Shown here: positions 31,490 to 57,814 of the stretch, piece by piece
How the letters are laid out: every line of letters starts with the position of its first letter
Position numbering within the stretch: the stretch's first letter is position 1
Assembly: GCF_030540765.1 (NCBI RefSeq)
Contig: NZ_JAUOEL010000008.1
Location: forward strand, 124,001 to 188,000
Reading direction: 5' to 3'
DNA from: Flavivirga jejuensis
GTDB taxonomy: Bacteria > Bacteroidota > Bacteroidia > Flavobacteriales > Flavobacteriaceae
Length of the DNA stretch: 64,000 nucleotides
Program-made: the position numbers and the translations under genes
The notes under the pieces: model-generated
The model's database searches: none
What the model was told of the DNA's origin: nothing
What the model saw: only the letters and a program-made list of their open reading frames with translations

Positions 31490-31507
31490 CTGTATAAGAA
31501 ACTATGC

Positions 31508-32578: not shown

Positions 32579-32638
32579 CATTTCATCGGATTTAAATACA
32601 CTTTATCGATGATTTTGATAGTATATATTCTATATTAG
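32579..32638 (+). promoter_or_regulatory. Two-part operator and -7 element of the 1220-aa gene
   Basis: Half-sites CATTTCATCGGAT (32579) and CACTTTATCGATG (32599) are 20 bases apart; the -7-like TATATTAG is at 32631-32638, 32 bases after the second half-site. The same layout recurs before 57826. Confidence 0.55.
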
Positions 32639-32685
32639 CCCCCATGATTTTATCTAATTAAAATTTCTCTCAAAATCAATGATTT

Positions 32686-35600
32686 ATGAAAAAAAGACTA
32701 TTTTACTTACTAATCTGTTTAATTGCTTATTACACAAACGCTCAAACACCTGGTGTTTCAACCTTTTTTGAACAAAGTCCTGGAGACACCAGAGAATATA
32801 TAGAATATATTCCAGGTAATTTACCTATAATTATATCTGCACCTCATGGAGGCGTAAAACAATCTGGAAGCACCATTGGAGGTGTGTTTTATCCAGACAA
32901 CGATGCTTCTTTACCTGATAGGAATTGTGGAACTAATGAAAGGGATGACAATACTGAAATTTTGGTTAGAGAAATTCAAGAAGAAATTTTTAATCAAACA
33001 GGTTGCTATGCACATGTTATTATCAATAATTTACATAGAACAAAACTAGATCCTAATCGGGAAATAAATGAAGCGACTTGCGGAGACTCAGACGCCATGG
33101 ATCATTGGAACGCCTGGCACAGTTTTATTGACCAGGCAAGTGCATCAGTCGAAGCTAATTGGGGAAAAGGTCTTTATATAGATTTACACGGGCAAAGTCA
33201 CTCTATTGCAAGAGTTGAATTGGGATATAATATCTCGTCTTCTCAATTAAACAGCTCAAATTTAAACGGAGCCTCTATTATTAATAACTCTACAATTAAA
33301 AACCTTGTTTCTAATAATTTAGGCTTATTAAATCATGAAGAATTAGTAAGAGGTAGTGAAAGTTTAGGTGCTAAATTAAAAGCGACTACTGCTACATTCT
33401 ACAATAATAATGTAAGCTCTGGTTGCGGTGTAACATCAGGTTACAGAGCTATTCCAAGTAATTTTGATAGCGGTGCATCTGATAGCTGCGACGATACCAG
33501 ACCATTTAGTAACTCATATTTCGCTGGCGATTTTTACAATAACTTAAGACATGGTTCTGGACCTGCTGCTAGTGACGGAACTGGAGGAAGCGGAAGCATA
33601 GACGGTATAATGAGTGAAGTAAACAGACGTGTTAGGGATTTAGGGACTTACAAAGGCAACTTTTTTGATTCAAGACCACAAACCTTAGTACCTTTTGCTA
33701 AAGATTATGCTGCCGTAATACTTGATTATATTGATACACATTATAATGATTTCGCAAAGTTTACTTATAGTTCAAGTAGCTATACTACTAATGGTAGTGA
33801 CCCTACTCCAAGTATCACTGGAGTTTCTGGGGGAAGTTTTTCCAGTACTTCTGGTTTAACAATAAATAGTACTACAGGAGTTATTGATGTTTCTAATTCA
33901 GTAGTTGGAAATTACGTTGTAACCTATACTGCTGGTACTTGTGGTTATTATAAACAGACTCAAAACGTTGAAATTACAGGTTTTACTCCAATAGCATCCT
34001 GTCAAAATATTAATGCCTTATTAGATGGAGCTGGTAATGTTACGATTACGGCTGCAGAACTAAATGATGGCAGTAGCGTTGGTAATTTATCTATAAATAC
34101 ATCCAGTTTTACTTGTGCTAATCTTGGTGCAAATAATGTAACATTAACAGCTACAGACCCTGGAAACCCTGGAAACACAGACTCTTGTGTTGCAATAGTC
34201 ACTGTAACGCAACCTAACAAACCTGCAGATGTCATTACTAATGAAACCATCTGTTCTGGTGAAACTTATACATGGTTTGGTACAGATTATACAACCAATC
34301 AAACAGCAACAACTATTGTGAATGATGGCTGTACGGCAGATCAGGTATTAAACCTAACAGTAACACCGAAACCTGCAGATGTCATTACTAACGAAACCAT
34401 CTGTTCGGGTGAAACTTACACATGGTTTGGTACAGATTACACAACCAATCAAACAGCAACAACTATTGTGAATGATGGTTGTACAGCAAATCAGGTATTA
34501 AACCTAACAGTAACACCGAAACCCGCAGATATCATTACTAACGAAACCATCTGTTCGGGTGAAACCTATACATGGTTTGGTACAGATTATACAACCAATC
34601 AAACAGCAACAACTATTGTGAATGATGGTTGTACGGCCAATCAAGTATTAAACCTAACAGTAACACCAAAACCCGCAGATGTCATTACTAACGAAACTAT
34701 CTGTTCAGGAGAAACCTATACATGGTTTGGTACAGATTATACAACCAATCAAACAGCAACAACTATTGTGAATGATGGCTGTACAGCAGATCAGGTATTA
34801 AACCTAACAGTAACACCAAAACCCGCAGATGTCATTACTAACGAAACCATCTGTTCTGGTGAAACCTATACATGGTTTGGTACAGATTATACAACCAATC
34901 AAACAGCAACAACTATTGTGAATGATGGCTGTACAGCAGATCAGGTATTAAACCTAACAGTAACACCAAAACCCGCAGATGTCATTACTAACGAAACCAT
35001 CTGTTCTGGTGAAACCTATACATGGTTTGGTACAGATTATACAACCAATCAAACAGCAACAACTATTGTGAATGATGGTTGTACAGCCAATCAGGTATTA
35101 AACCTAACAGTAACACCGAAACCCGCAGATGTCATTACTAACGAAACTATTTGTTCAGGAGAAACTTATACATGGTTTGGTACAGATTACACAACCAATC
35201 AAACAGCTACAACTATTGTGAATGATGGTTGTACAGCAGATCAGGTATTAAACCTAACAGTAACACCGAAACCTGCAGATGTCATTACTAACGAAACCAT
35301 TTGTTCGGGAGAAACCTATACATGGTTTGGTACAGATTATACGACCAATCAAACAGCAACAACTATTGTGAATGATGGTTGTACGGCAGATCAGGTATTA
35401 AACCTAACAGTAACACCGAAACCTGCAGATGTCATTACTAACGAAACCATCTGTTCTGGTGAAACCTATACATGGTTTGGTACAGATTATACGACCAATC
35501 AAACGGCTACAACTATTGTGAATGATGGTTGTACAGCAAATCAGGTATTAAACCTAACAGTAACACCGAAACCCGCAGATATCATTACTAACGAAACTAT

Positions 35601-36348
35601 CTGTTCTGGAGAAACCTATACATGGTTTGGTACAGATTATACAACCAATCAAACGGCAACAACTATTGTGAATGATGGTTGTACGGCGGATCAGGTATTA
35701 AACTTAACAGTAACACCGAAACCTGCAGATGTCATTACTAACGAAACCATCTGTTCAGGAGAAACCTATACATGGTTTGGTACAGATTATACGACCAATC
35801 AAACAGCAACAACTATTGTGAATGATGGTTGTACAGCCAATCAAGTATTAAACTTAACAGTGGATACAGGTCTATTATACTATATAGATAGCGATTTAGA
35901 TGGTTTTGGTTCTACAACTAGTGTCATGTTATGCAGCTCTACCGCTCCTTCTGGATACGCTATAAATAATACTGATTGTAATGATGGGAACCCTAATATC
36001 AACCCAGATGCAACTGAAATATTTAATAACGCCATTGACGAAGATTGTGATGGCATTGCTCAAACGACATTGGAAATAGATAATTCCAACCTTGATAATA
36101 CGGCAATATCTCCAAACCCATTTAATAATTTTATTGAGATTAAACTACCTCAAAACTTTAATAATAGAGAATTTAATATCAAAATATTTGACCTAAATGG
36201 AAGACTTATGTTCAACAAAATACTTTTGAGCAACAATGGAATTATTAAAATCCCCAAATTAAGTAGCTTAGAAGAAGCCATTTACCTAATAAAAATTCTA
36301 AATATAGAAACAGGAAATAGTGTTCTAAAAAGAATAATTCGATATTAA
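32686..36348 (+). CDS. T9SS-exported N-formylglutamate amidohydrolase-like protein with 11 repeats, 1220 aa
   Basis: A signal peptide (1-20, ending TNAQ) is followed by an N-formylglutamate amidohydrolase-like domain of about 330 residues. APHGG is at 52-56, [15 protein letters not shown] near 113-127 and YIDLHGQSH at 164-172; these carry the His, Asp and Arg expected for a zinc amidohydrolase. Next comes a beta-rich linker, then eleven 50-residue repeats (512-1059), each with [17 protein letters not shown] and a conserved Cys pair. A MopE-like Ca-binding segment (DSDLDGFGS... [15 protein letters not shown]) and a T9SS type A sorting domain end the protein. The usual family member is cytoplasmic (histidine degradation), so an exported form probably has another acyl or peptide substrate. 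Confidence 0.85.
34219..35865 (+). repeat. Eleven tandem 150-bp coding repeats
   Basis: Each unit encodes 50 residues from KPADVITN to LNLTVTP. Differences between units are mostly silent, with V/I at one site and D/N at another. The near identity implies recent amplification or homogenisation and possible length variation by recombination. Confidence 0.95.
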
Positions 36349-36457
36349 TCAATAAACTTACTCTTACAGGCAATAAATATACAGCTACAAAAATATGGAT
36401 TTGTTGAAAAATCCTTCTTTTTAATAATCTGTAAATCAACAAGTTATACCAAATATT

Positions 36458-36505
36458 CATTTCGTCGATTTTTTTTGCATTTAATCGATCCGACATATAT
36501 ATTTG
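36458..36505 (+). promoter_or_regulatory. Operator and promoter of the 2018-aa gene
   Basis: Half-sites CATTTCGTCGATT (36458) and CATTTAATCGATC (36478), 20 bases apart. The second lies between TTTG (36474-36477) and the -7 TATATTTG (36498-36505), a 20-base spacer. The leader is about 50 bases. Confidence 0.65.
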
Positions 36506-36557
36506 AACTCAATTTATTTGCCCCTTAGCTATAAATCAACCACTTACAACAAAAAAA

Positions 36558-39500
36558 ATGGTCTCTCAAAAAAAAACAATAACCTATATAATAGGTTTAC
36601 TTATTTCTATAAGCACATTTTCCCAAACAATATATTCTGAAGATTTTGAAACAAACTTTGATGTAGATACTAATGGCTGGACACTATCAAGTCCAACTGG
36701 TAATATGAATTGGGAAGGAGGAAACACAAATGGAGTCCCAAGTTCTTCAGGCACACCATCTGGAGGAACAGGACCAAGTGCAGCCAATTCAGGAAACTTT
36801 TTTACCTATGTTGAATCTTCTGGAGCCAATGCTCTTCTTAAAGAAGCAATAATAACGAGTCCTTCAATAGATTTGTCAGGATATACAAGTCCATCACTTT
36901 CCTTTTATTATCATATGTATGGAAATAATATTGGAGATTTAAATATCGATATTAATGATGGAGGAGGTTGGACAACCCTGCTTACAATATCAGGACAGCA
37001 ACAATCTAGTAATGGAGCAGCATGGCGTAACTCGTTATCTTCTGCAATAGACCTTTCTGCTTACACTGGTAGCACAGTTCAAATTAGGTTTCATGGAATA
37101 ACTTCAAATACTGGAAATTATTATCGTAGTGATTTTGCCGTTGATGATGTTTTAATAACTGGAACACTAATAGTTGGTCCAGAAATAAATATTCAAGGAA
37201 ATTTAACCGACATTGCTACTGGAGATACAACACCTATTATTGGAGATCACACCGAATTCGGTTCTATTGCCAATGCCACAACTTTCGATCGCACATTTAC
37301 TATTCAAAATACTGGTACTGCTACCCTAAATTTAACAGGAGGCACGCCTATAGTAGACATTAGTGGTAATGCTGCCTTTTCTGTTTTAACACAGCCTGGT
37401 GCTAATACTATTGCCAGTGGTGGAGATTTAACTTTCGTAGTTAGGTTTGCTCCTACAACCGACGTCACTAATGCCCAAGCCACAATTTCAATTGACAATA
37501 ATGACACTACAGATGGTGAAGATCCTTATACTTTTGTGGTACAAGGGTCATCATTTACACCTGCTCCAGAAATAAATATCCAGGGAAATTTAACCGATAT
37601 TGCTTCAGGCGATACCACACCTATAGCTGGAGATCACACCGAATTCGGTTCTATTGCCAATGCTACAACTTTCGATCGCACATTTACCATTCAAAATACT
37701 GGTACTGCTACCCTAAATTTAACAGGAGGCACGCCTATAGTAGACATTAGTGGTAATGCTGCCTTTTCTGTTTTAACACAGCCTGGTGCTAATACCATTG
37801 CTAGTGGTGGAGATGTAACTTTCGTAGTTAGGTTTGCTCCTACAACCGATATCACTAATGCACAAGCTACAATTTCTATTGATAATAATGACACTACAGG
37901 TGGTGAAGATCCTTATACTTTTGTGATACAAGGGTCATCATTTACACCTGCTCCAGAAATAAATATCCAAGGGAATTTAACCGATATTGCTTCAGGTGAT
38001 ACCACGCCTATAGCTGGAGATCACACCGAATTCGGTTCTATTGCCAATTCCACAACTTTCGATCGCACATTTACCATTCAAAATACTGGTACTGCTACCC
38101 TAAATTTAACAGGAGGCACGCCTATAGTAGACATTAGTGGTGATGCTACCTTTTCTGTTTTAACACAGCCTGGTGCTAATACCATTGCCAGTGGTGGAGA
38201 TGTAACTTTCGTAGTTAGGTTTGCTCCTACAACCGATGTCACTAATGCACAAGCTACAATTTCTATTGATAATAATGATGCCACAGGTAGTGAAAACCCA
38301 TATACATTTGTAATACAAGGGTCTTCATTTACACCAGCTCCAGAAATAAATATACAAGGAAACTCAATTGATATTGTTTCAGGAGATACCACGCCTGCTT
38401 TTGGTGATGATACCGAATTTGGAGCAACCATTACCTCAACAACAATTGATCATACTTTTACAATTCAAAATACAGGGCTATCTACTTTAAATCTAACTGG
38501 AGGATCCCCTTTAGTTGCTATTAGTGGTGATGCGGCATTTTCTATTTTAACACAACCAAGTGCTAGCAGTATTGCCAGTGGTGGAGATGTAACTTTCGTT
38601 GTTAGATTTGCTCCCACTATAGTCGGTTCAAATCTACAAGCAACTATTTCTATTGCTAATGATGACAGTGATGAAAATCCATATACTTTTGTTGTACAAG
38701 GTTCTGCACTACTGACTAATTCGCCAGGAAATGTTAGTTCTAACTTACAATTATGGTTACGTGCAGACCAAGGTATTGCTTTAACAGGAACAGATGTAGA
38801 TTCATGGTCGGATCAATCTACCAATGGATTTACTGGAACATCTGAAGGAACAGCAGATGCTGAATATGTTACTTCTGGACTTAACTATAATCCTATTTTA
38901 CGATTTTCTGGAAATTCATTTTATAATTTAGGGAACCCTTCCCAGTTAGACCTGCAACCAAACACAGATGAAATGACCATTATTACTGTGGTTGTTACCG
39001 CTGGGGCAACTACAGGAACTGTATTTGGTAAATCAAATAGTTCAACACGTAACTATCAAGTTTGGTTTGGTACCACAGATCGTGTATTACACCATACATT
39101 AGGAAGACAAGGAGGCAATCAAGCCGTACGCTGGGGAACAATTTACGCCTTAAATGAACCTAAAATTACAACTGGTATTGTTTCTAATACTGGTAATAGC
39201 CTTACCAGACTATCTCCATATGTTAATGGCGTGCTTGATCCTGCCGATGTAAATAATGGAACTTCTACAGGAAACTCTGTAACAGATGTTTTAGTTGGAG
39301 CAAGAAGGAGTGGTACAAATTCTGGTTCTGGTTATCGTTATAATGGAGACATTGCAGAAATTATAATGTACGATAGAGACTTAAATGCTACAGAGCAACA
39401 AAAAGTAGAATCCTATTTATCCATAAAATATGGTGTTACGCTAGGGTCAAATGATGCTTTTTGGGACACTGCAACCAATACGTCTTCGTCATTTGGATAC

Positions 39501-42500
39501 GCAGGAACCAGCTATGATTATATAGCTTCTGATGGTAGTACACTTTGGGATGGCGCTCTAAATGCTGGTTATGGATATAATGTTTTTGGTATTGCTAGAG
39601 ATGACGATTCAAACTTATTACAGCAAAAATCTAAAAGTGTTAATGTGATACCAGAACCCATTTTAACAATGGAAGCAGAATCTGGCTCTTTAAATACTAA
39701 TTTAAGTTATTTACTGGTTGGTAACAATGGCGATAATATAGCGTTAACCACTTCAAGTCTTCCTATACGATCAACAAATATTTTAGAAAGAAGATGGATT
39801 GTTAGGGAAAGTACTAATGATCCAGGAACGGTTACATTAGAATTTGATTTAAGCACATCACCTATCACAGATACCCAAGGAGCAAATTTAGAGTTATTAA
39901 TAGCAGATAATACAAGTTTTAATAATTACAAAAATATTGCAGGTACTTACAATGCAACTACAGATATTTTAACCTTTACAGGAATAAATTTTGAAAATGC
40001 AGAATATTTTACGTTAGGTACCACTGAAGAATACCAAGATACTTACCATTTAAGTTTTAATGGTACTACGAGATATATTGATCTTGGAGACAATAATGAT
40101 TTAACTGGAAATTTCACCATCTCTGCATGGATAAAAAGCAACACAAATAATAGAACCATAATTTCTAAAGGAAGCGCAGCTGGTTACGAGTTTAGTATTA
40201 ATAGTTCTGGGAACTTAGTTATGAATTTTAATTCTGGGACACAAACAGTAACATCAACTAATAGTGTGCCTCAAAATATATGGCACCATGTTGCTGTAAT
40301 CTATAACGGAACAACCACTAAAATTTATATCGATGGCATAGAAGATGGAACTGCTAATATTAGTACGTCACCTGTTGCCAATTCAGAAAGTTTCCTAATT
40401 GGTGCTTCTGGAAGTTCACCAAGCAATTTTTTCTCGGGTGAAATGGATGAGTTAAGAATTTGGAATCGTGCTTTAACTGTAGATCAACTTAGATTTGTTA
40501 TGAATCAGGAAATTGAAGTTTCTGGAGGAAATGTATATGGTACTATAATTCCTCAAACAGTAACTAAGCACGAAACGAGTAGTATACCCTCAGCAGATTT
40601 ATTAGCATACTATCCATTTTCTCACATAAAAGGCAATTGTGTCTTAAATGAATCTTCAAACACAACACAAAACGGAAGACTTTACAACCTCCCTACCAGT
40701 TCAATAGAAAATCAAACAACGCCCCTACCGTTTATTTCTAACGCCAATACAGATTGGGATGTATCTGCCACTTGGTTAAATAATGGCGTACAGTACATCC
40801 CTAACACGACAATTAATGGAACAAATGTAGATTGGAATATTGTTGAAATTAATCATAATATTTCTGTTGACAGAGATTTAAATGTTTTGGCATTACTGTC
40901 CAATTCTAACGAACTTACCATAAATGGTAATACAGCCTTAAATACAGGACATGGGTTAACCATAACTCACTATTTAAAACTTGATGGTTCTATAGATTTA
41001 GAAGGGGAATCTCAGCTAATCCAAACTACAGGTAGTGATTTTGATGCTACAAGTACGGGGACTTTAGAAAGAGACCAACAAGGCACTTCTAATACCTATT
41101 TATATAACTATTGGGCTTCGCCTGTTGCTCCTACAAGTAATACAAATTACACCTTGCCTAATGTATTCAATAATATTAATTTTCTGGGCTCTGGGTATAA
41201 TGGTACAGCTCTACCTGTTGCTGTTGCAGATTATTGGATATGGAAATATGCCAATAGAGTAAGTGATACCTATTCTGAGTGGCAACATATTAGAAGTACA
41301 GGAACAGTATCACCTGGAGAAGGATTCACTATGAAAGGTCCTGGTACAGCAACTCCAGACCAAAACTACGAATTACTAGGACAACCAAATAATGGAGATA
41401 TTACTTTAACACTAAGTAAGGATAATGATTATTTAGTTGGAAACCCTTACCCATCGGCTATTGATGCCAATACTTTTATTTTAGATCATCTTAGTGTTAC
41501 AGAAGGTGGTAATTATTCAAATGCAACAGAAAATATTATTAATGGTGCGCTCTATTTTTGGGATCATTTTGCTATTAACACACATGTATTAAACTCATAT
41601 CAAGGAGGCTATGCGATTTATACATTAATGGGAGGTGCGCTCTCTATTTCAAATGATGTGAGAATTGATGCTACTGGAGGCGTAGGTACAAAACTGCCAG
41701 AAAGGTATATTCCAGTTGGTCAGGGATTTTTTGTGTCCGCGGTACTAGATGCTAATTTAATTGGAGATCCAAACGATCCTGCCATAACATTACCAGTTAA
41801 TGGTGGAACTATCACTTTTAGAAACAGCCAACGTGTGTTCCAAAAAGAGGTCGTTTCTGGATCAAATACTGGATCTTTATTCCTTAAGACTAATTCTAAA
41901 GGAAAATCGGCTACAACTCATAAAGAAACAGATCCAAGAGAAAAAATCAGACTAATGTTTGATTCTCCAGATGGTTACCACCGTCAATTACTTGTTGGCA
42001 TTGATGAAAACGCATCCAACGGATTTGATATAGGGTATGATGCGCAGCTTATTGAATCTAATAGTGAAGACATGTATTGGCATGCTAATAATTCCAACTT
42101 AATCATTCAGGCAGTTAATAACTTTAATAAAGAACAAATACTTCCCTTAGGTGTGAAAATAAACACAGAAGGTTTAGCCACAATAAAAATTGATGAATTA
42201 AAAAATATCGATAGCAATCAAAACATTTATTTACACGATAAGGAGCTAAATACATATCATGACTTACAACAAAATGATTATGAAGTTTATTTAACCTCGG
42301 GTGAGCATTTAGAACGTTTTGAAATAACATTCTCAAATAATAATACATTGCTAGATGTAGACTCTGTTGAAAATAAGGACCTACAAGTATATTTCTCTAA
42401 TAAAAAAGAGAGTATTATTGTTCATAACCCTATTTTAAAACAAATTAAATCTATAGAAGTATATAATATTTTAGGGCAATCTATTTATGAATTTAACACA

Positions 42501-42614
42501 GAAACCAATAAAAATTATATAGAAAATAAAACACCTAATATTATAACTGGTACTTATATTATCAAAATGAAAACAGAAGCAGAAACCATTTCTAAAAAAG
42601 TATTAGTTAAATAA
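36558..42614 (+). CDS. T9SS-exported LamG / choice-of-anchor-D multidomain protein, 2018 aa
   Basis: A signal peptide (about 1-23) leads into a MAM-like domain (EDFETNF... DDVLIT, about 28-204). Four choice-of-anchor-D repeats follow (208-720; three nearly identical, one diverged), then a ConA-like segment (LQLWLRADQG...), a LamG domain (about 1155-1310, FTISAWIKSNTNN... MDELRIWN) and a C-terminal module of about 630 residues shared with the products of 52278 and 57826 (HYLKLDGSIDLEGESQLIQT, NPYPSAIDANTFILDH). It closes with a T9SS type A sorting domain. The exported modules suggest binding of polysaccharide or a role as adhesin or surface scaffold. The exact ligand is not visible. Confidence 0.85.
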   Translation: MVSQKKTITYIIGLLISISTFSQTIYSEDFETNFDVDTNGWTLSSPTGNMNWEGGNTNGVPSSSGTPSGGTGPSAANSGNFFTYVESSGANALLKEAIITSPSIDLSGYTSPSLSFYYHMYGNNIGDLNIDINDGGGWTTLLTISGQQQSSNGAAWRNSLSSAIDLSAYTGSTVQIRFHGITSNTGNYYRSDFAVDDVLITGTLIVGPEINIQGNLTDIATGDTTPIIGDHTEFGSIANATTFDRTFTIQNTGTATLNLTGGTPIVDISGNAAFSVLTQPGANTIASGGDLTFVVRFAPTTDVTNAQATISIDNNDTTDGEDPYTFVVQGSSFTPAPEINIQGNLTDIASGDTTPIAGDHTEFGSIANATTFDRTFTIQNTGTATLNLTGGTPIVDISGNAAFSVLTQPGANTIASGGDVTFVVRFAPTTDITNAQATISIDNNDTTGGEDPYTFVIQGSSFTPAPEINIQGNLTDIASGDTTPIAGDHTEFGSIANSTTFDRTFTIQNTGTATLNLTGGTPIVDISGDATFSVLTQPGANTIASGGDVTFVVRFAPTTDVTNAQATISIDNNDATGSENPYTFVIQGSSFTPAPEINIQGNSIDIVSGDTTPAFGDDTEFGATITSTTIDHTFTIQNTGLSTLNLTGGSPLVAISGDAAFSILTQPSASSIASGGDVTFVVRFAPTIVGSNLQATISIANDDSDENPYTFVVQGSALLTNSPGNVSSNLQLWLRADQGIALTGTDVDSWSDQSTNGFTGTSEGTADAEYVTSGLNYNPILRFSGNSFYNLGNPSQLDLQPNTDEMTIITVVVTAGATTGTVFGKSNSSTRNYQVWFGTTDRVLHHTLGRQGGNQAVRWGTIYALNEPKITTGIVSNTGNSLTRLSPYVNGVLDPADVNNGTSTGNSVTDVLVGARRSGTNSGSGYRYNGDIAEIIMYDRDLNATEQQKVESYLSIKYGVTLGSNDAFWDTATNTSSSFGYAGTSYDYIASDGSTLWDGALNAGYGYNVFGIARDDDSNLLQQKSKSVNVIPEPILTMEAESGSLNTNLSYLLVGNNGDNIALTTSSLPIRSTNILERRWIVRESTNDPGTVTLEFDLSTSPITDTQGANLELLIADNTSFNNYKNIAGTYNATTDILTFTGINFENAEYFTLGTTEEYQDTYHLSFNGTTRYIDLGDNNDLTGNFTISAWIKSNTNNRTIISKGSAAGYEFSINSSGNLVMNFNSGTQTVTSTNSVPQNIWHHVAVIYNGTTTKIYIDGIEDGTANISTSPVANSESFLIGASGSSPSNFFSGEMDELRIWNRALTVDQLRFVMNQEIEVSGGNVYGTIIPQTVTKHETSSIPSADLLAYYPFSHIKGNCVLNESSNTTQNGRLYNLPTSSIENQTTPLPFISNANTDWDVSATWLNNGVQYIPNTTINGTNVDWNIVEINHNISVDRDLNVLALLSNSNELTINGNTALNTGHGLTITHYLKLDGSIDLEGESQLIQTTGSDFDATSTGTLERDQQGTSNTYLYNYWASPVAPTSNTNYTLPNVFNNINFLGSGYNGTALPVAVADYWIWKYANRVSDTYSEWQHIRSTGTVSPGEGFTMKGPGTATPDQNYELLGQPNNGDITLTLSKDNDYLVGNPYPSAIDANTFILDHLSVTEGGNYSNATENIINGALYFWDHFAINTHVLNSYQGGYAIYTLMGGALSISNDVRIDATGGVGTKLPERYIPVGQGFFVSAVLDANLIGDPNDPAITLPVNGGTITFRNSQRVFQKEVVSGSNTGSLFLKTNSKGKSATTHKETDPREKIRLMFDSPDGYHRQLLVGIDENASNGFDIGYDAQLIESNSEDMYWHANNSNLIIQAVNNFNKEQILPLGVKINTEGLATIKIDELKNIDSNQNIYLHDKELNTYHDLQQNDYEVYLTSGEHLERFEITFSNNNTLLDVDSVENKDLQVYFSNKKESIIVHNPILKQIKSIEVYNILGQSIYEFNTETNKNYIENKTPNIITGTYIIKMKTEAETISKKVLVK
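37179..38711 (+). repeat. Four tandem 387-bp coding repeats
   Basis: Units start at 37179, 37566, 37953 and 38340 with PEINIQGN. The first three are almost identical in DNA, the fourth is diverged and slightly shorter. Each encodes one choice-of-anchor-D domain of 129 residues. Confidence 0.9.
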
Positions 42615-43171
42615 TAGTTTTCCAAAATACTTTGCAAAAGGGGTTCGTGTCATTCAGAACGAAGTGAAGAATCTCACTGTCTTTACATTAAATAAAAATA
42701 AAAGGTTTTGAATTTCAATCCTGAGCGGGTATTTCTTAATGAGATCCTTTAAAGATGCTTCGCTGTGCTCTGGACGACAAACGATTGAAAAATTAATCAT
42801 TTATATATAATAAAAAAAAACGTCAATGGTAGATCTGTGTTAAAAATTTTAACTAGCGGATGAAATGACGTAATTGAGGTGTCATTCAGGAGGTACGACT
42901 GAAGAATCTTTAAAGATTAATGATAAAGATTCTTCGCTGCGCTCTGAATGACAAATAATTGAAAATAAAGTATTTACAAAAAAATATCAATGATAGCGAA
43001 GCGAAGAATCTCACTATCTTTACATTAAATAAAAATAAAGGGTTTCGGATTTCAATCCTGAGCAGGTATTTCTTAATGAGATCCTTTAAAGATACTTCAT
43101 TGCATACAGAATGACTCTTTTAAGCAACCACTTTCTTTGTTTTAAAGCAAAGAGTTTACTACTCCATAGAT
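42615..43171. repeat. Spacer packed with dispersed flavobacterial repeats
   Basis: A 96-bp direct repeat occurs at 42666-42761 and 43003-43098 with few differences (starting GAAGAATCTCAC). Between them is an inverted pair, GTCATTCAG (42881) with CTGAATGAC (42944), enclosing two copies of the GAAGAATCTT motif in opposite orientation. No gene is visible. Confidence 0.7.
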
Positions 43172-47194: not shown

Positions 47195-47237
47195 AAATCT
47201 TGAGGTTAGTTATTTTTAAGTCTCAACGAAGTTATTG

Positions 47238-47271
47238 CATTTCACCGAATAAAACAATCATTTTAGCGATT
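47238..47271. promoter_or_regulatory. Operator-like motif before the first sulfatase (opposite orientation)
   Basis: CATTTCACCGAAT (47238) and CATTTTAGCGATT (47259) are 21 bases apart, like the operators of the plus-strand T9SS genes but pointing away from the sulfatase. It lies in the 178-base gap upstream of 47194. Confidence 0.4.
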
Positions 47272-47312
47272 TATTGATATAAATAGTACATTTATATAAA
47301 GATTTAACGCAC

Positions 47313-47340
47313 AAAAAAGAGAAGAACATAGTTCTTCTCT
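47313..47340 (-). terminator. Terminator of the second sulfatase gene
   Basis: A 10-bp perfect stem (47318-47327 with 47331-47340), then a T-run on the minus strand (complement of 47313-47318). Confidence 0.8.
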
Positions 47341-47372
47341 TTAAATAAAAGTACACTAAATTTTACTTTATT

Positions 47373-50300: not shown

Positions 50301-51560
50301 TAGCATTTGCCATTGGCTGGCACCATCAATATCATATCCTGTAGGCAACGTTCCCCCAGCTGCTTCTACTAAAGTAGGATATAAATCGAAAGCTATTACT
50401 GGCGTGGTATTAACAGTTCCTTTATTAGCTAACCACGGGGCTTCAGACCATGCTAGCGTTACCGATCTAATCCCGCCTTCATAATATTCACCTTTCATGC
50501 CACGTAGTGGTCCAGCATCATCACTACTTATAGCTCCCCCGTTATCCGAAATAAAATACACCAATGTATTCTCAGATAGCATCTTACCTGGATTTCTTGG
50601 ATCGGCAGTTGTTTTTAAATAATCTATTAGTCTTCCAATAGTTTGATCCATACCTTCTGCAATCGCAGCTTGTCCTTTATTGTTATGCCCCATTTGACTA
50701 GGAGTTTTCGCATCATATTTGGCATACAAATCTGGTCTGGCATTCGCCTGATTAAATGGTCCGTGAATAGCATAATTACTAAAATGCATAAAAAAGGGAT
50801 TGCTCTTTTCTGCTTCCATAAAATCAATCGCCGCATCTGCCATGGCATCTGTAACATGTTTTGGAGTGCCTTCTAATGAATTGTCTCCAGCAAGTGCTAA
50901 CGACTCTGCTGCTGTATATGGGGCTGCGTATACATCAAGTTCTGGTCCAATATTACTACTAAAAGTATAAGGCGCACTACTCGATGCAAAATAACTTCCT
51001 GGTGCCCCAGAAGTACCTCCTCCATAATTATAATCGAAACCTTGATCGGTTGGCGCATTATTAGAAGTACTGGAAGCTTCATTTTCCCCTACATGATACT
51101 TACCTAAATGCGAGGTAGTGTATCCTGCTGTTTTCATTGTTTCTGCAATGGTTATAGCACTTGAGGGTATTTCATCTATGTTATTATTAGACGCTAAACC
51201 CATATCTGGACCAATCAAAGTAGAGTTAGAACTCGTATTACCTCTATTTAAGTCATAGACATTAAATATGTTGTTAGTTGGTCTTGACGCATACTGACCA
51301 CTTAACAACGCTGCTCGCGTAGGTGCACAATTGGCGCCATTCACATAGGCATATGGAAATGCAATGCCTTGCGATGCTAATGTTTCCAAGGTTGGGGTTT
51401 CGTAAAAATCACTTGGGTTGTTCAAATTTGTTAATCCCGTACTGACTTGTGACCAGCCCATATCGTCGGCAATGATAACAATTACATTAGGGGATTGAGA
51501 AGAGAGATGATTAAAAAATAAAATAAATAGCAATAAACATAAATACTTGGTAGTTTTCAT
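47373..51560 (-). CDS. T9SS-exported sulfatase with LamG and Ig-like domains, 1395 aa
   Basis: A close paralogue of the neighbouring sulfatase: signal peptide, the same N-terminal domain with C78-A-P-T-R82, D32-D33 and FISDNGG, and two LamG domains. It then differs: two PKD/Ig-like repeats (ADVTICEGDSTILTASGGTTYLW and DVTINNGDSTTLTATGGGTYLW) and a choice-of-anchor-type beta-sandwich (SEGFESGWGIWNDGGSDSYRN...) take the place of the MopE array. A T9SS type A sorting domain closes it. The two genes probably arose by tandem duplication followed by swapping of C-terminal modules. No nearby FGly maturase is visible. Confidence 0.9.
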   Translation of the reverse strand: MKTTKYLCLLLFILFFNHLSSQSPNVIVIIADDMGWSQVSTGLTNLNNPSDFYETPTLETLASQGIAFPYAYVNGANCAPTRAALLSGQYASRPTNNIFNVYDLNRGNTSSNSTLIGPDMGLASNNNIDEIPSSAITIAETMKTAGYTTSHLGKYHVGENEASSTSNNAPTDQGFDYNYGGGTSGAPGSYFASSSAPYTFSSNIGPELDVYAAPYTAAESLALAGDNSLEGTPKHVTDAMADAAIDFMEAEKSNPFFMHFSNYAIHGPFNQANARPDLYAKYDAKTPSQMGHNNKGQAAIAEGMDQTIGRLIDYLKTTADPRNPGKMLSENTLVYFISDNGGAISSDDAGPLRGMKGEYYEGGIRSVTLAWSEAPWLANKGTVNTTPVIAFDLYPTLVEAAGGTLPTGYDIDGASQWQMLTNGTSMTRESIYWHFPGYLIDSNRDQRPVSIIRTGDYKLIYNYETVSYELYDLINDISETTNLLSGSPDQATLMLGNEMSTDLQNHLIAVSAPLPTYRSDGTTVALPYIISTSGGVPNSTDGCQAVSGYEAYWDFDIASDANDASGNGNDPNPVNGTLTYDAVDFKEGDQSAVFDGTVDINYSSATFISPATSARTVSAWIKPTNLVGIQEIFDEGGNTVGIAMRLNGTNLESVVRSSLSIADNVSTPFPNDGDWHHVALVYDGATTSHKLYIDGVEVASSSAAPSSIASHNTTGGGIGGVIGNYDSFANAADSYFTGKMDAFSVYGTVLSNTQIEEAFCLVVGNSTAGCQPTSGYESYWDFDSANSSIGEDASGNLHNPIATVGSITADTSDFKEGDQSAVFNGSSSIQYSPGSPGDFMVSGHSARTMMAWIKPTNLVGLQNVYDEGGGSIGIAMRLNGSNLEGVVRESASSFIQISAAFPNDGAWHHVALVYDGANTSQKLYIDGLEVASGTAAASINTHTGKGGIGGKISGNDSFANSSDAFFTGKMDAFTVYDEVLNATEINDSACTVAAVVANAGADVTICEGDSTILTASGGTTYLWNTGATTASITVSPVSTTTYSVTVSDGVTSDNDDVIVTVNTLPTADAGSDVTINNGDSTTLTATGGGTYLWSTGATTASIAVSPIATTTYTVTVTQNGCSSDDDVIVTVNSVGCTYSVLNSEGFESGWGIWNDGGSDSYRNPNATYATTGTYSMRLRDNTSTSVGTTDNLDLTAYEEITVDFGYYCRSMDNSNEDFWLQISTNGGGSFTTVEEWNRDDEFVNNQFYTDQVLISGPFTATTQLRFRADASGNSDWVYIDDVIISGCSTSGGTSKIASSKTKPENETIAEEAFNLTEIEAILYPNPFKEQLIIKIQAEYIRSNVRIFNMLGQLIVEKNYSKETLIKIPTSNLESGQYLININIDGKTVHKRVIKD

Positions 51561-52188
51561 ATTTAAAAAAATTGGTTAGTAATCAACAAGTTAGTGTTTT
51601 TTTTCAATAAAAAACGAATGTTTAAACTTGTTTATAAATATTTTCCTTCGAAGAACAACAGTAAAAACGTCTAAAAAATCGTAAGTAATAGATTATCAAT
51701 ACATTAAATCATGTATTACAAAAAAACGATACGATGTTGTATCTTAACTTAATTATTAACTAAAATGAAATTTTTGCATTTAGAACATGCATAAGACTGA
51801 TTTACAGACATAAAATAATATCAAAAACTACTTCTAAGTCACAAAATTTTATTTTCAATACCTGCATTGCAGATTTTTATCTGTAAAATTCAATCGAATT
51901 GACGAATTTTTATCAAAAAATAAAGCCTGTTAAATAAGTGCCAAATCTACCTATTGGAATCGTAATATTTAACGCTTAAAAATAAGCGAAAATTTTATAA
52001 AAAAAACCATCCTATAAAGCCATTATTCTTTTCAAATTTAGTTGTCATTTTTTTAAAATCACCTCAAAATATCAAGCAAATACTACATCATGACATCTAA
52101 GTATTACATTTAAACAAGTTAAATTTAATTATCTAAAAATCAATAAGTTACAAAGATATAAAAACAAAAGTAATCTCCAACCCACATG

Positions 52189-52236
52189 CATTTTGTCGAT
52201 TTTATTTGCATTTCATAGAATATTGTAATATATTAG
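52189..52236 (+). promoter_or_regulatory. Operator and promoter of the 1729-aa gene
   Basis: Half-sites CATTTTGTCGATT (52189) and CATTTCATAGAAT (52209), TTTG at 52205-52208 and TATATTAG at 52229-52236. The geometry is identical to 36458-36505. Confidence 0.65.
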
Positions 52237-52245
52237 CTTCAAATA

Positions 52246-52262
52246 TTTAGTCCCAAACTAAA
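52246..52262 (+). promoter_or_regulatory. Palindromic leader element (copy 1)
   Basis: TTTAGTCCCAAACTAAA, a 6-bp stem with a 5-base loop, 15 bases before the ATG. The same 17 bases occur before 57826. Confidence 0.55.
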
Positions 52263-52277
52263 AATTCTAACCGCTTT

Positions 52278-55200
52278 ATGGGAAACTTTCCTTCATTCTA
52301 CAGACACCTCCTTTTTGGAGTATTTTTATGTTATAGTTTTACAGCTATTTCACAAGATTTTAATGTACAACATATTCAAGACGATATTGATGAAACTGGT
52401 GGCACTAATACTAGTTTTACAGCAGTTTCTTCTTTAAATAATGCAGTTGCTTTGGCAAATAATAACAGAAAAACCCATGGAGGCTCTAATGGCGTTACTG
52501 CTGGAAGGCAAGGAGACGATATGGCTGGAGCTCGTACTTTAACTGGCACTGGAACATTATCATACTATCGAGAATCTGGTTCAGAAAATGAAAACACAAG
52601 ATTTAACACGTCTATTTGGGAATATATAGGTTCTGGAGGTGGCCCTAATGAAATGATTGTTAGAGGACGATATGTTATAGACCTTAACGGCGGAACTTAT
52701 ACCGTCGATGAAGCTATTTCAGGAATCTCTAATAAAGATAAGTGTATCCCTTTTATTACTGGGATAATGAATAATTCTGTTGCTGGTAATGCCGATTCTG
52801 GAACAGCCATAGCCTATTTAACAAGCGATACTAACTTAAGAGTAGAAAAAGGAGGAACTAACACTCCTAATGTTCGTGTTTATATAACTCTAGTAGAATT
52901 TACAGGATCCAACTGGACCGTTTTACATGGAGATTCTGGAGATACAGGAGGAAATACAGGTACGATAACTTTATACGACAGTTCAGACGGCACAGGAACA
53001 ATAACAGATGTAAGTGACTGGTCCAATGCTATCATATTTAGCCATCACAGAGGAGATACAGCCATTGCTGGTACTAATGACGGAAATTCTGCTAACTGGC
53101 CCATGACAACACCAGGAAGTAATGACCAAACTGTAAATTGGACTTCCCATAGTTCTCACCTTTCAGATGGTACCAATCGTAATTTTGTACATGTATTAAA
53201 TAATTCTGAAGTAACCGTAACCAGATTTAGTGATGCTTCTGTAGGAACTTCTATAACTATAGATATAACCTCAGCAGGACTAACAGATTTAAGTCAAGCT
53301 ATGGTAGTTGGTTCAACGTATCATAGTGGTTCTGGTATTGGTTATGGTAGAGGATGGAGAAATTATAAATTAAATTCATTAACACAAGCCGAACACTGGA
53401 CACATCGTGCTGGAGGAGGGACATCTACTGTAGGCACCAGTATGCAAATTGTAAATTTTATTTATACCCCAACCCAAACCGAAGGTCCAGGAGGTATTAC
53501 AACAAACTTAGAATTATGGCTTAAAGCAGATTCTGGTGTGGAAGAAGCTACTAGTGATGCTGCTGAGAATACTGATCCTGTTTTAAATTGGTTGGACAAT
53601 ACCATAAGCAACAACGATGCGACACAAATTACAGGAACCAATAAGCCGACCTATACAGATGGCGTTTTAAATTTTAATCCTGTAATTGATTTTGATGGAG
53701 ATGACCTTTTACAAACTCCTGCAATAACTACTAATTCTGACATGACCGTATTTACCGTTGCAGAAGGACAAAGTGGTGTTCAAAAACAAATATTAAATTT
53801 AAACGGTGGTGATAATATTATTATAGAATATCTAGATGCCACCCCCACTTTTAGAGCAAGAATGTATGATGGAGTGAATACTGGAGAAATATCAACGTCA
53901 ACCGATGTAGCAGATGGAACAACCTATATTGCAAATTATGATGTATATTCAAATACTGATTCTGAACTCTTTATTAATGGTTCTTCAGTTGGAAAAGATG
54001 CTACAAATGCATATGCCCCAACAAGTCCAATTGCCAACATAGGTGGACATCCTTCAAATACAGCAAAAAGATGGGATGGTGGTATCGCTGAAGTTATTGT
54101 ATATAATGGGTCTATAACAAATACCGAAAGAGACAAGATAGAATCTTACCTAGCTATTAAATATGGAGTTACATTGGGTACAAATGGCACATCTCAAGAT
54201 TATGTGGACTCAGATGGCAGGGTTATTTGGGATCAACTTGATAATGTAGGTTTCAATTATAACGTTACAGGTATTGGACAAGACGATGTTGCAGAATTAA
54301 ATCAAAAACAATCAAAATCCATTAATACAACAGATGATATAACTATTGGCATCAAAGATATCGCTACTAACAACAGTACAAATACAAATTCCTTTTTAGC
54401 CGATAAAACCTTCTTAATGTGGGGGCATGATGATGGCGCCACAACAGCAACGACTGATATCACTAAAGATTTTGGAGCTGGAACAGGTGTAACAAGTAGT
54501 GTAAGTGTAACTCCAATCATCAGAAAATGGAAAATGGTAGTTACAGATTCTGTTCCCACTATAAAACTTTCAATACCAGAATCTATGGTATCTGCTACCA
54601 ATGCAGGAGGTGAAGAATATGTTATGATCGTTGCAGACGATGCTTCGTTCACAACTAATGTAACATCAGCAACCATGGAAGATGTCGGTACAGAATTAGA
54701 AGTTGATTTCTACTTTGAAGGGACTAAATACATTACATTTGGTTCTACACCAGAAATCGCCATAGGGTCTCGTTCTGCACATTTTGATAATTATCTAACA
54801 AACGATACCTATTTAGATGCTGGCGATGTAAATGATTTAGATAATACAGATTTTACTATTAGCGCCTGGGTGAAACGTGATGTAGGAGAAAATAAATTCG
54901 ACATCGTTTCTAAAAGAAATTACTTCCACGAAGCTCCTGGTCCTCCTGCTGAAACGTATACGCATGGCTATGCGTTTAGAATAAATTCAACCAGCCAATT
55001 TAGAATGGTTTGGAGAGATCCTGACGATAGCTCTAACAATATCATGGAAACCTCTGCCACCATTCCAGAAAATGAATGGCACCATATAGCAGCAACTTAT
55101 GACTCTGGCACTAACATGGTGAGTTTATATATTGATGGTTACCTGGAAGATAGTGATGACGCATTAGATCCAATAGAAACACCATCAGATTCTCATTTCT

Positions 55201-57467
55201 TGATTGGAGCAGCACATCATATTAAAAGGCAACAAAGAATGAGAGGTAGTGTTGATGAAGTACGTGTTTGGAATGTAACACTTTCGGGAGACCAGATACG
55301 ATATATCATGAACCAAGAAATAGAGAATAATTCTAATTTTGCTGATGGTGTAGTTTTACCAACTTCTACTACCAAAAATGAAGTCATACCAATTCCGTGG
55401 GCTAACTTAATTGCCTATTACCCAATGAGTACTTTAGTTTTTGGTAGCATTAAAGATGAATCTGATAGTGGTAATGATGCTACTATGATAAATTACAGTG
55501 ATTTAGATAATCAAACTGCTCCTTTACCATACAAAACAGCAGGAGATGGTGATTGGGATACTTCAGCTACTTGGGAAAATGGCGATGTACAATATTTACC
55601 AGGAGTTGATTCATATTTAGCTGCATTGGAGACTATTGATTATAATATTGTCCAAATAGACCATAACATCACTATGGACAATTCAAATACAACACTTATT
55701 CCTGCTTCAAGAAATGGTAACAGAACTATTTTAGGCTTAATTGTTAATAGTGGCGGTGATCTGCAAATCAATGGCAGTACTGCTTCTAATACTGGTTTTG
55801 GGTTAACTGTTTCTCATTATCTTAAACTAGACGGAACTATAGATCTGGAAGGCGAATCTCAATTAATTCAAACGACAGATAGTGATTTTGACGTAACAAG
55901 TACTGGTACTTTAGAAAGAGATCAACAAGGAACTTCCAATACATATCTTTATAATTATTGGTCGTCTCCTGTAGCTCCAACTAGTAATTCGAATTACACA
56001 GTACCTAATATAATATCTAATGTTAGTTTTTTAACGTCAGGATATAATGGTACGGCAACCCCTAGTATTGCAAATGCCGATTATTGGATCTGGAAATATG
56101 CTAACAATCCTGCTAATGATTACTCGCAATGGGAGCATGTTAGAAGTACTGGGAGTATTTCACCAGGTCAAGGTTTTACAATGAAAGGACCAGGTACTAG
56201 TGGCGATCAAAACTATATACTATCTGGACAACCTAATAATGGAGATATTACCCTAACATTAAGTGATGATAATGACTATTTAGTTGGAAACCCTTACTCA
56301 TCTGCTATTGATGCCAATGCCTTTATTTTAGATCATATTAGTATTACAGATGGCGGTAATTATTCAGATCTAACAGAAAATATTATTAATGGTGCGCTTT
56401 ATTTTTGGGATCATTTTGCTAATAACACGCATACATTGGGAGCATATCAAGGAGGCTATGCGACTTATACATTAATCGGAGGTGCCCTTGCTATTTCAAA
56501 TGATGTAAGAATTAATGCTACAGGAACCGTAGGCACAAAACTGCCAGAAAGGTACATTCCAGTTGGTCAGGGATTTTTTGTATCCGCAAAATTAGATACT
56601 AATTTAGTTGGAGAGCCAAACGATCCTGCAATAACATTGCCAGTTAACGGCGGAACCATTACATTTAGAAACAGTCAACGAGTTTTCCAAAAAGAGATCG
56701 TTTCTGGATCAAATACAGGATCCTTATTCTTTAAATCAAATACAAAAGAAAAATCTGCTGTCAATTCAAAAACAGCAGATCCAAGACAAAAAATCAGACT
56801 AATGTTTGATTCTTCCGAAGGATATCATCGTCAATTATTAGTTGGAGTAGATCAAAAAGCCTCAAATGATTTTGATTTAGGTTATGATGCGATCCTAATA
56901 GAATCTAATAAAGAAGATATGTATTGGAAGGTAGGAGCATCAAAATTAACAATTCAGGCAGTAAACAACTTTAACCAAGAACAAGTTTTACCGTTTGATT
57001 TAAAAATTAATAAAGAAGGATTAGCAACGATAAGAATTGATGAATTAGAAAACATGACTAATGATCAAGATATCTTTTTATTTGATAAGGAACTAAATGT
57101 TTATCACAATTTAAGGCAAAGTGATTATGAAATTTTCTTATTTCCTGGTGAATATCAAGATCGTTTTGAAATTACTTTTTCTAATAACGCGCATCAAATA
57201 TTAAGTAAGGATGCTATTGAAAATGATAACATAGAAACATACTTTTCAAATAAAAAACAAAGTATTATTATTCATAACCCAACATTAAAAAACATACAAT
57301 CTATTGAAATGTTTAACATACTAGGACAATCCTTATTACAATTTGAACCTAAAACAAATAATAATTATATACAATACACCATCGCCCAAATTAAAACAGG
57401 CAGTTATATATTGAAAATAGGTACAGAAGAAGGAACAGTTTCTAAAAAAGTATTAATCAAAAAATAG
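52278..57467 (+). CDS. T9SS-exported LamG protein, 1729 aa
   Basis: A signal peptide (about 1-25, CYSFTAISQ) precedes a novel N-terminal beta region (about 26-390), a ConA-like segment (LELWLKADSGVEE..., about 410-640), a LamG domain (about 840-1010, FTISAWVKRDVGENK... VDEVRVWN) and the C-terminal module of about 640 residues shared with the 2018- and 1635-aa proteins. It ends with a T9SS sorting domain. The C-terminal half is close in DNA to that of 36558-42614, so exchange or recent duplication is likely. A surface or extracellular role in polysaccharide binding or attachment is probable but unproven. Confidence 0.85.
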   Translation: MGNFPSFYRHLLFGVFLCYSFTAISQDFNVQHIQDDIDETGGTNTSFTAVSSLNNAVALANNNRKTHGGSNGVTAGRQGDDMAGARTLTGTGTLSYYRESGSENENTRFNTSIWEYIGSGGGPNEMIVRGRYVIDLNGGTYTVDEAISGISNKDKCIPFITGIMNNSVAGNADSGTAIAYLTSDTNLRVEKGGTNTPNVRVYITLVEFTGSNWTVLHGDSGDTGGNTGTITLYDSSDGTGTITDVSDWSNAIIFSHHRGDTAIAGTNDGNSANWPMTTPGSNDQTVNWTSHSSHLSDGTNRNFVHVLNNSEVTVTRFSDASVGTSITIDITSAGLTDLSQAMVVGSTYHSGSGIGYGRGWRNYKLNSLTQAEHWTHRAGGGTSTVGTSMQIVNFIYTPTQTEGPGGITTNLELWLKADSGVEEATSDAAENTDPVLNWLDNTISNNDATQITGTNKPTYTDGVLNFNPVIDFDGDDLLQTPAITTNSDMTVFTVAEGQSGVQKQILNLNGGDNIIIEYLDATPTFRARMYDGVNTGEISTSTDVADGTTYIANYDVYSNTDSELFINGSSVGKDATNAYAPTSPIANIGGHPSNTAKRWDGGIAEVIVYNGSITNTERDKIESYLAIKYGVTLGTNGTSQDYVDSDGRVIWDQLDNVGFNYNVTGIGQDDVAELNQKQSKSINTTDDITIGIKDIATNNSTNTNSFLADKTFLMWGHDDGATTATTDITKDFGAGTGVTSSVSVTPIIRKWKMVVTDSVPTIKLSIPESMVSATNAGGEEYVMIVADDASFTTNVTSATMEDVGTELEVDFYFEGTKYITFGSTPEIAIGSRSAHFDNYLTNDTYLDAGDVNDLDNTDFTISAWVKRDVGENKFDIVSKRNYFHEAPGPPAETYTHGYAFRINSTSQFRMVWRDPDDSSNNIMETSATIPENEWHHIAATYDSGTNMVSLYIDGYLEDSDDALDPIETPSDSHFLIGAAHHIKRQQRMRGSVDEVRVWNVTLSGDQIRYIMNQEIENNSNFADGVVLPTSTTKNEVIPIPWANLIAYYPMSTLVFGSIKDESDSGNDATMINYSDLDNQTAPLPYKTAGDGDWDTSATWENGDVQYLPGVDSYLAALETIDYNIVQIDHNITMDNSNTTLIPASRNGNRTILGLIVNSGGDLQINGSTASNTGFGLTVSHYLKLDGTIDLEGESQLIQTTDSDFDVTSTGTLERDQQGTSNTYLYNYWSSPVAPTSNSNYTVPNIISNVSFLTSGYNGTATPSIANADYWIWKYANNPANDYSQWEHVRSTGSISPGQGFTMKGPGTSGDQNYILSGQPNNGDITLTLSDDNDYLVGNPYSSAIDANAFILDHISITDGGNYSDLTENIINGALYFWDHFANNTHTLGAYQGGYATYTLIGGALAISNDVRINATGTVGTKLPERYIPVGQGFFVSAKLDTNLVGEPNDPAITLPVNGGTITFRNSQRVFQKEIVSGSNTGSLFFKSNTKEKSAVNSKTADPRQKIRLMFDSSEGYHRQLLVGVDQKASNDFDLGYDAILIESNKEDMYWKVGASKLTIQAVNNFNQEQVLPFDLKINKEGLATIRIDELENMTNDQDIFLFDKELNVYHNLRQSDYEIFLFPGEYQDRFEITFSNNAHQILSKDAIENDNIETYFSNKKQSIIIHNPTLKNIQSIEMFNILGQSLLQFEPKTNNNYIQYTIAQIKTGSYILKIGTEEGTVSKKVLIKK

Positions 57468-57706
57468 TTATTTTTTTGTGTATTACATAAGATACTGAAT
57501 ATCAAATGACTCTATAAACTTCCAGTTCATAGAGTAGTTTTGGCAGACCGAAAGTCTATTTCGTAAAATACCGAAATAAAAGAATAAACATTATAAATGT
57601 AAATTTGTGAAACCTGCCAGCCAGCAGGCTGGTTCGTGTCAAAAATTTTTAGAAGCTAAAAGCTCTAAAACATATATTTTCAGATGTATTTTAAGACAAA
57701 TACGTA

Positions 57707-57767
57707 CGCTTAATCGAATATTTAACACACTTTATCGTGTTTTTTACAAAATAAAAATATATATTTG
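57707..57767 (+). promoter_or_regulatory. Operator and -7 element of the 1635-aa gene
   Basis: Half-sites CGCTTAATCGAAT (57707) and CACTTTATCGTGT (57728), 21 bases apart; TATATTTG is at 57760-57767, 32 bases after the second half-site, as before 32686. Confidence 0.55.
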
Positions 57768-57797: not shown

Positions 57798-57814
57798 TTT
57801 AGTCCCAAACTAAA
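57798..57814 (+). promoter_or_regulatory. Palindromic leader element (copy 2)
   Basis: TTTAGTCCCAAACTAAA, identical to 52246-52262, 11 bases before the ATG at 57826. It could affect ribosome access or mRNA stability. Confidence 0.55.

Follow-up and report, generated by a model that had tools for sequence, protein, structure and literature searches.

Paired LytTR-type half-sites before giant T9SS protein genes of Flavivirga jejuensis, with an orphan LytTR regulator as their probable reader

LytTR-type response regulators mostly recognize a 9-11 nt repeat present twice, in direct (or inverse) orientation, with the copies 11-13 nt apart, and one of them, YpdB of Escherichia coli, binds a direct repeat of GGCATTTCAT, with yhjX stated as its only target, according to those parts of the source that were accessible (PMC4847170). 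In the yhjX promoter of the K-12 record, the copies stand at -114 and -93, corresponding to a period of 21. Within the accessible parts of three papers on LytTR proteins of Flavobacterium or Flavobacteriaceae (PMC10197871, PMC10057207 and PMC7440613) no LytTR binding site was found, and a literature search by titles and the openings of abstracts, covering few subscription journals, found no operator or regulator for Flavobacteriaceae cargo genes of the type IX secretion system (T9SS). Here we describe a paired sequence element in a 64,000-nucleotide stretch of Flavivirga jejuensis (contig NZ_JAUOEL010000008.1, positions 124,001 to 188,000; called the window, in whose numbering positions are given), where an earlier note had read two box copies before each of four large T9SS genes as a shared two-part operator of the LytTR type. 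This reading is well supported by a spacing test, intergenic placement, recurrence across the family, two phased promoter classes and a half-site resembling that of YpdB. We consider it probable that the pairs are tandem LytTR-type half-sites that control, across the family, a regulon of genes for giant T9SS surface proteins, other secreted proteins and signalling, with an orphan LytTR response regulator as their most likely reader.

Two boxes of about CAYTTNRTCGAT precede each of the genes starting at 32686, 36558, 52278 and 57826, at the spacings collected in Table 1. The start of box 2 is 20 bp from the start of a TATATT(T/A)G (-7) element in two of these promoters and 32 bp from it in the other two, and the leaders, described as 40-60 bases long, measure 47, 52, 41 and 58 bp from the end of the -7 element to ATG. 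Scanning both strands of the whole window for pairs at spacings 14-29 with at most four mismatches in total returned five pairs, namely the four above and a further one with boxes at 47238 and 47259, while about 0.25 pairs are expected by chance at spacings 20 and 21 (20 Markov shuffles). Single boxes with at most three mismatches were not enriched (341 versus 329 expected), indicating that the pair itself is the signal. With an IUPAC pair pattern leaving the base before box 2 free, this base was G in 10 of 12 matches in the own genome, and thus the true half-site is longer, about TGCAYTTNRTCGAT. Having a 9-nt core and an 11-nt spacer (period 20), the element sits at the low edge of the repeat geometry of LytTR sites.

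The own genome (6.0 Mb, G000 in identifiers) was compared with reversed sequences or reversed patterns as controls, and position weight matrix (PWM) scanning and placement counts were performed on a 1.2 Mb sample of it. The PWM was built from 37 sites, 33 of them hand-picked from matches in relatives and four from the own genome, including three from the window; two sequence-only models (R1 and R2), each scoring 150 candidates out of 5005 and 12827, respectively, gave a first look only. Over the whole 6.0 Mb, the pair at spacing 20 with at most three mismatches occurred 12 times, compared with 3 for the reversed pattern. The PWM found 15 pairs scoring at least 18 in the sample and none in its reversed sequence, and spacing 20 was the sole clear excess among spacings 14-45 (18 versus 0 in the control, or 14 versus 0 without the four training sites). 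Although open reading frames (ORFs) make up about 87% of the sample, all 17 sites scoring at least 17 are intergenic; all 17 are also within 300 bp of a gene start, nine directed towards the gene, six reversed and two between two starts. The window is the densest concentration of sites within the sample.

The objection that the copies merely reflect upstream duplication holds for part of the cluster at most. The products of the 36558, 52278 and 57826 genes are paralogs that are 44-48% identical over their C-terminal parts, and shared promoter ancestry is possible for these three. However, duplication as the sole cause is rejected in general because unrelated genes across the genome and the family carry sites. 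The pair and its -7 element are kept before the orthologs of the 32686 gene in G001 and of the 36558 gene in G004, where the flanks are similar too.

The distances to the -7 element define two promoter classes. We collected 91 sites scoring at least 17 together with their flanks, 33 from the own genome and 58 from relatives (mainly best matches), including many orthologous or array-overlapping ones, so that they do not represent 91 independent events. In this set, TAnnTT[TAC]G is found at offset 20 in 12 sites and at offsets 30, 31 and 32 in 6, 1 and 3 sites, while each other offset from 12 to 70 holds none or one; shuffling the downstream letters gave expectations of 0.16 (offset 20) and 0.49 (offsets 30-32), with maxima of 2 and 4 in 500 trials. 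The own genome contributes five sites to the 20-bp class and three to the 30-32 class. Bacteroidota promoters follow the consensus TTTG/TAnnTTTG, and TTTG stands 18-22 bp before the -7 element in 10 of the 14 promoters with offsets 19-21, always abutting box 2, versus none of the 10 promoters of the 30-32 class at -33. Two promoter classes about one turn apart recur across the family, and the single helical turn named by the earlier note stands as an approximation, the exact difference being 12 bp in the window and the longer offsets varying elsewhere. A position that overlaps the -35/-33 region or lies directly ahead of it, as is typical of LytTR-type operators, is seen in 24 of the 91 sites, with the -7 element at 19-21 or 30-32 bp.

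The products of all four genes behind the pairs in the window, and of the minus-strand gene behind the fifth pair (43172-47194), passed TIGR04183. Counting a site when it scored at least 16 within 300 bp, and calling signal peptides by our own heuristic, we found sites in the 1.2 Mb sample before 8 of 24 ORFs of at least 1000 aa with a signal-peptide-like start versus 9 of 895 other ORFs; leaving out six window genes, 4 of 18 such giant ORFs still had one (p=7e-5). Secreted-looking proteins below 500 aa were not enriched in the same sample (4 of 299). Outside the window, sites precede genes for T9SS proteins of 3843, 1951, 1405, 1301, 1161 and 666 aa. When 11 outside-window targets were scanned with NCBIfam, three passed TIGR04131, three others TIGR04183 and five neither (two of the sequences are incomplete at the end), and no T9SS sorting domain was seen in nine further proteins scanned with Pfam along with the candidate regulator. 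A site also precedes an open frame that is rich in repeats and at least 3239 aa long, whose adhesin-repeat matches are all sub-threshold, and others belong to genes for lipoprotein-like proteins, a FIST sensor, a PAS histidine kinase, a histidine phosphotransfer (HPt)-receiver pair and a histidine phosphatase. For the FIST and PAS kinase genes the best-matching sites have spacing 21, and those of the HPt and phosphatase genes are also present in relatives (L311, L065 and L081). Both arylsulfatase-like neighbours in the window carry a T9SS type A sorting domain and only one has a pair. Giant T9SS proteins are enriched among the targets, but the statement that the operator drives large T9SS genes was too narrow, since lipoprotein-like, signalling and other genes have the site and some T9SS genes lack it.

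Three arrangements near target genes were seen alongside. Pairs lie just before the histidine-phosphatase (SixA-like) gene (L065, L081 and G000:C30:385322-385511), 4-7 bp from its start codon in the own genome, G028 and G034, with extra upstream pairs in the own genome and G028. A reversed four-box array (two pairs, G000:C23:505325-505408) precedes the gene of the 1405-aa T9SS type B protein, and a similar array is present in G005 (L321). Another pair (G000:C30:33941-33972) has the end of a two-component regulator gene on one side and a tsaE-like gene on the other; we take this regulator gene to resemble porX. Pair sequences similar to the latter are found in G001, G006, G007, G008 and G010.

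To which protein the pairs belong can be approached through their distribution. Among 149 genomes of the family (148 genera), with statistics that ignore shared descent, the pair pattern gave 569 matches versus 45 in the control, and its frequency follows one protein of the 24 LytTR matches in the own genome. This candidate is an orphan response regulator encoded at G000:C32:193701-194396 (window-equivalent 69701-70396, about 6 kb past the right end), flanked by rpsF-rpsR-rplI-like and priA-like genes as judged from their translations, and it consists of a receiver and a LytTR domain (PF00072, E 1.6e-18, and PF04397, E 5.6e-19, both over the curated cut-offs). Mean matches per genome were 6.5 in the 58 genomes with an ortholog of at least 88% identity, 2.8 in 64 with 60-72%, 1.0 in four with 45-53% and 0.35 in 23 with none. 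Of the 122 genomes having an ortholog of at least 60% identity, 101 contained at least two matches, compared with none of the 4 with a 45-53% relative and none of the 23 with no ortholog. Matches per Mb amounted to 1.79 with an ortholog of at least 88% versus 0.12 in the control, and to 0.13 versus 0.12 without an ortholog. A second LytTR protein (L095), present in 66 of the 149 genomes at its own cut-off, was rejected as reader because its presence is not associated with that of the site (47 of 66 versus 54 of 83, p=0.48).

The candidate is identical over 230 aa in all 11 congeners (G001-G011), while third codon positions of its gene differ by 19-29%. We built a tree of 74 LytTR proteins from nine genomes, comprising the 24 own ones and 50 of 63 from eight family genomes (10 of G016 and 3 of G021 were left out). 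The candidate's clade is the only one that has members from the own genome and from G019, G020 and G034, all site-bearing, and none from the site-free G013 and G035, all of whose LytTR proteins were in the tree. Upstream of its own gene is an imperfect pair with a -7-like TACTATTG (one mismatch) 40 bp from box 1; this stretch is similar over the genus and in orthologs of at least 91% identity, and the pair comes near the consensus in G019 and G025 (score 21). The candidate may regulate itself, and it would bind the operator, presumably in a manner dependent on phosphorylation.

The earlier note had proposed as reader a different LytTR protein, encoded with a histidine kinase containing tetratricopeptide repeats (TPR) within the window (29056-29781), which would make the operators cluster-specific. 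Its LytTR architecture fits, 2.8 kb separate its gene from the first operator, and the window is where sites are densest. Yet among the 21 relatives searched an ortholog was present in G009 alone (88%, the next best being 42-43%), whereas all 11 congeners have 6-12 pattern matches, and the sites are spread throughout genome and family; this protein is accordingly rejected as the conserved reader, and cluster-specific operators read by it seem very unlikely to us. A related-locus search with it returned three loci, one of them close (Flavivirga sp. 57AJ16, 88%), and this paralog may have taken over some sites later. Its operon with the kinase (29056-31963) belongs to a paralogous set (C28:527293 and C28:76039) that varies between congeners. 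We regard it as unlikely, to a slightly lesser degree, that a factor outside the LytTR family reads a two-turn direct-repeat site, the orphan LytTR having been lost along with it in reduced lineages. Co-occurrence is correlation, and the genomes without the orphan LytTR are smaller on average. However, eight genomes of 3-5 Mb without the ortholog also contain 0 or 1 match, the half-site resembles the known LytTR half-site of YpdB, and the promoter of the LytTR gene itself has the imperfect pair.

Reading by the orphan LytTR would proceed as follows. Tandem half-sites of period 20 bp would be occupied by two monomers on one DNA face, two turns apart. In the 20-bp class, box 2 comes straight after the -33-like TTTG and 20 bp before the -7 element; in the other class the pair lies roughly a turn farther from the -7 element (30-32 bp), and TTTG is missing at -33. 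The orphan regulator would in this way control giant T9SS surface proteins, other secreted and signalling genes, and perhaps itself. For the forward sites we lean towards activation, and the activator dimer suggested previously is plausible, as the 30-32 phasing together with the missing TTTG at -33 in that class favours an activator. A repressor blocking the -33/-7 region, be it this orphan LytTR or some other protein, is a rather doubtful alternative on the whole, and parts of the data would suit it at some promoters: the TTTG joined to box 2 in the 20-bp class (10 of 14 promoters), the pair at 47238-47270, which is reversed and placed between TTG and TAACTTCG, readable as -33 and -7 of the 43172-47194 gene, and the phosphatase sites so close to the start codon. 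LytTR-type precedent exists as well, with PlnC activating and PlnD repressing from the same repeats in the portion of the source that could be consulted (PMC2714321), and the reversed pair may be predicted to repress the 43172-47194 gene. Against repression as the rule, occlusion explains neither the 30-32 phasing nor the absence of the -33 element there (0 of 10), three of the 14 promoters of the 20-bp class hold the exact 20 bp without TTG, and direct repeats upstream of promoters of the LytTR Regulatory System (LRS) activate, as far as the available text of PMC6193735 goes.

Several findings weigh against a family-wide LytTR operator read by the orphan regulator. As for the sites, 6 of 17 point away from the sole nearby gene start, and spacing 21, which occurs at 57826, 47238 and the FIST and kinase genes, is at background in the 1.2 Mb sample (5 versus 11 in the control); the 57826 pair scores 11.1, under the threshold of 16. 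The PWM depends on hand-picked training sites, three of which come from the window itself. No TAnnTT[TAC]G is present at 19-21 or 30-32 in 67 of the 91 sites, only 8 of the 33 own sites have it at class offsets, and the flanks from relatives come mainly from best matches, many of them orthologous. As for the protein, the regulator is present without any match in G024 (92%), G158 (88%) and G021 (63%) and with one match in G156, G137 and G114, and the candidate's clade also holds a member from the site-free G024 and a diverged one from the site-free G021. The 23 ortholog-free genomes are smaller on average (2.6 versus 3.6-3.9 Mb), and kinship or other shared losses could contribute to the co-occurrence. 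The pair before the candidate's own gene scores about 10 in the genus of the window, which is noise level, and gave no hit in G010. Finally, the candidate ranks only eleventh among the LytTR proteins of its genome against YpdB (28% identity, ten scoring higher), and it is rejected as a YpdB ortholog because those ten are closer.

Beyond the operator itself, it is conceivable, at less than even chance, that the near-invariant orphan LytTR is a master switch of surface display in Flavobacteriaceae, controlling giant T9SS adhesins, itself and the phosphorelay parts feeding it by way of the operator of period 20 bp, which at some promoters is fused to the -33 element, in a closed circuit that decides adhesin display. 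The FIST sensor, the PAS histidine kinase, the HPt-receiver pair and the histidine-phosphatase gene could be the parts that feed the regulator. If the orphan LytTR does read the pairs, one near-invariant protein and a 32-bp site would offer a family-wide handle on the exposure of giant adhesins and other large surface proteins, and the regulon would be predictable in any such genome.

Table 1. Positions of the operator pairs, promoter elements and genes in the window.
Feature	Position	Strand	Remarks
Operator pair, boxes 32579-32590 and 32599-32610	32579-32610	+	spacing 20; before the 32686 gene; PWM score 25.8
-7 element TATATTAG	32631-32638	+	32 bp from box 2 start
Target, protein of 1220 aa with a T9SS type A sorting domain	32686-36348	+
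Operator pair, boxes 36458-36469 and 36478-36489	36458-36489	+	spacing 20; before the 36558 gene; top-scoring pair of the 1.2 Mb sample
TTTG (-33-like) abutting box 2	36474-36477	+	20 bp from -7 element
-7 element TATATTTG	36498-36505	+	20 bp from box 2 start
Target, T9SS type A protein of 2018 aa containing choice-of-anchor D and LamG domains	36558-42614	+
Fifth pair, boxes 47238-47249 and 47259-47270	47238-47270	+	spacing 21; reversed relative to the minus-strand gene starting at 47194; score 18.4
Gene that the reversed pair may control, for an arylsulfatase-like T9SS type A protein of 1340 aa	43172-47194	-
Operator pair, boxes 52189-52200 and 52209-52220	52189-52220	+	spacing 20; before the 52278 gene
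TTTG (-33-like) abutting box 2	52205-52208	+	20 bp from -7 element
-7 element TATATTAG	52229-52236	+	20 bp from box 2 start
Target, 1729-aa LamG-domain T9SS type A protein	52278-57467	+
Operator pair, boxes 57707-57718 and 57728-57739	57707-57739	+	spacing 21; before the 57826 gene; weakest of the four
-7 element TATATTTG	57760-57767	+	32 bp from box 2 start
Target, 1635-aa choice-of-anchor D/LamG T9SS type A protein	57826-62733	+
LytTR response regulator proposed by the earlier note, lineage-restricted	29056-29781	-	ortholog in 1 of 21 relatives

Some further repeated strings surround these promoters. The leaders of the 52278 and 57826 genes share a 17-bp inverted-repeat-like TTTAGTCCCAAACTAAA (52246-52262 and 57798-57814), and TTAGYCCC-like strings occur after the -7 element of the 32686 gene as well as in G001 and G034, where related genes have them in their leaders. 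TTAGYCCCMA as a general leader companion was rejected, with six copies in 1.2 Mb versus two in the reversed control and three of the six before genes, all three in this cluster. AATCAAYAAGTTA is present at 36434, 51581 and 52138, upstream of the 36558 and 52278 operators and in the 51560-52278 gap; these are its three copies in 1.2 Mb (one in the reversed control), all within this cluster.

Compared with described systems, the pairs resemble the sites of the LRS, as in Streptococcus mutans, where direct repeats spaced by two turns stand upstream of -35, close to the promoter, and the LRS is autoregulated, as given in the accessible text (PMC6193735). The LRS regulator is encoded with a membrane inhibitor protein, whereas the candidate contains a receiver domain, and no membrane inhibitor partner was found beside it, among its ribosomal-protein-like and priA-like neighbours. 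PorX-SigP of Porphyromonas likewise controls T9SS functions in Bacteroidota, but, in what could be seen of the two sources (PMC4800418 and PMC5005315), it acts on secretion machinery genes via an extracytoplasmic function (ECF) sigma factor, while in the window cargo genes carry a LytTR-type operator. The closest likeness is to YpdB (PyrR in the current K-12 record) and yhjX, which have tandem direct half-sites with nearly the same core; the half-site here shares GCATTT with the YpdB site and reads GCATTTCAT in many copies. They differ in that the period is 20, with a conserved TCGAT extension, instead of 21 as in E. coli, and in that a large regulon is predicted here in place of the one target given for YpdB in the accessible part of its source.

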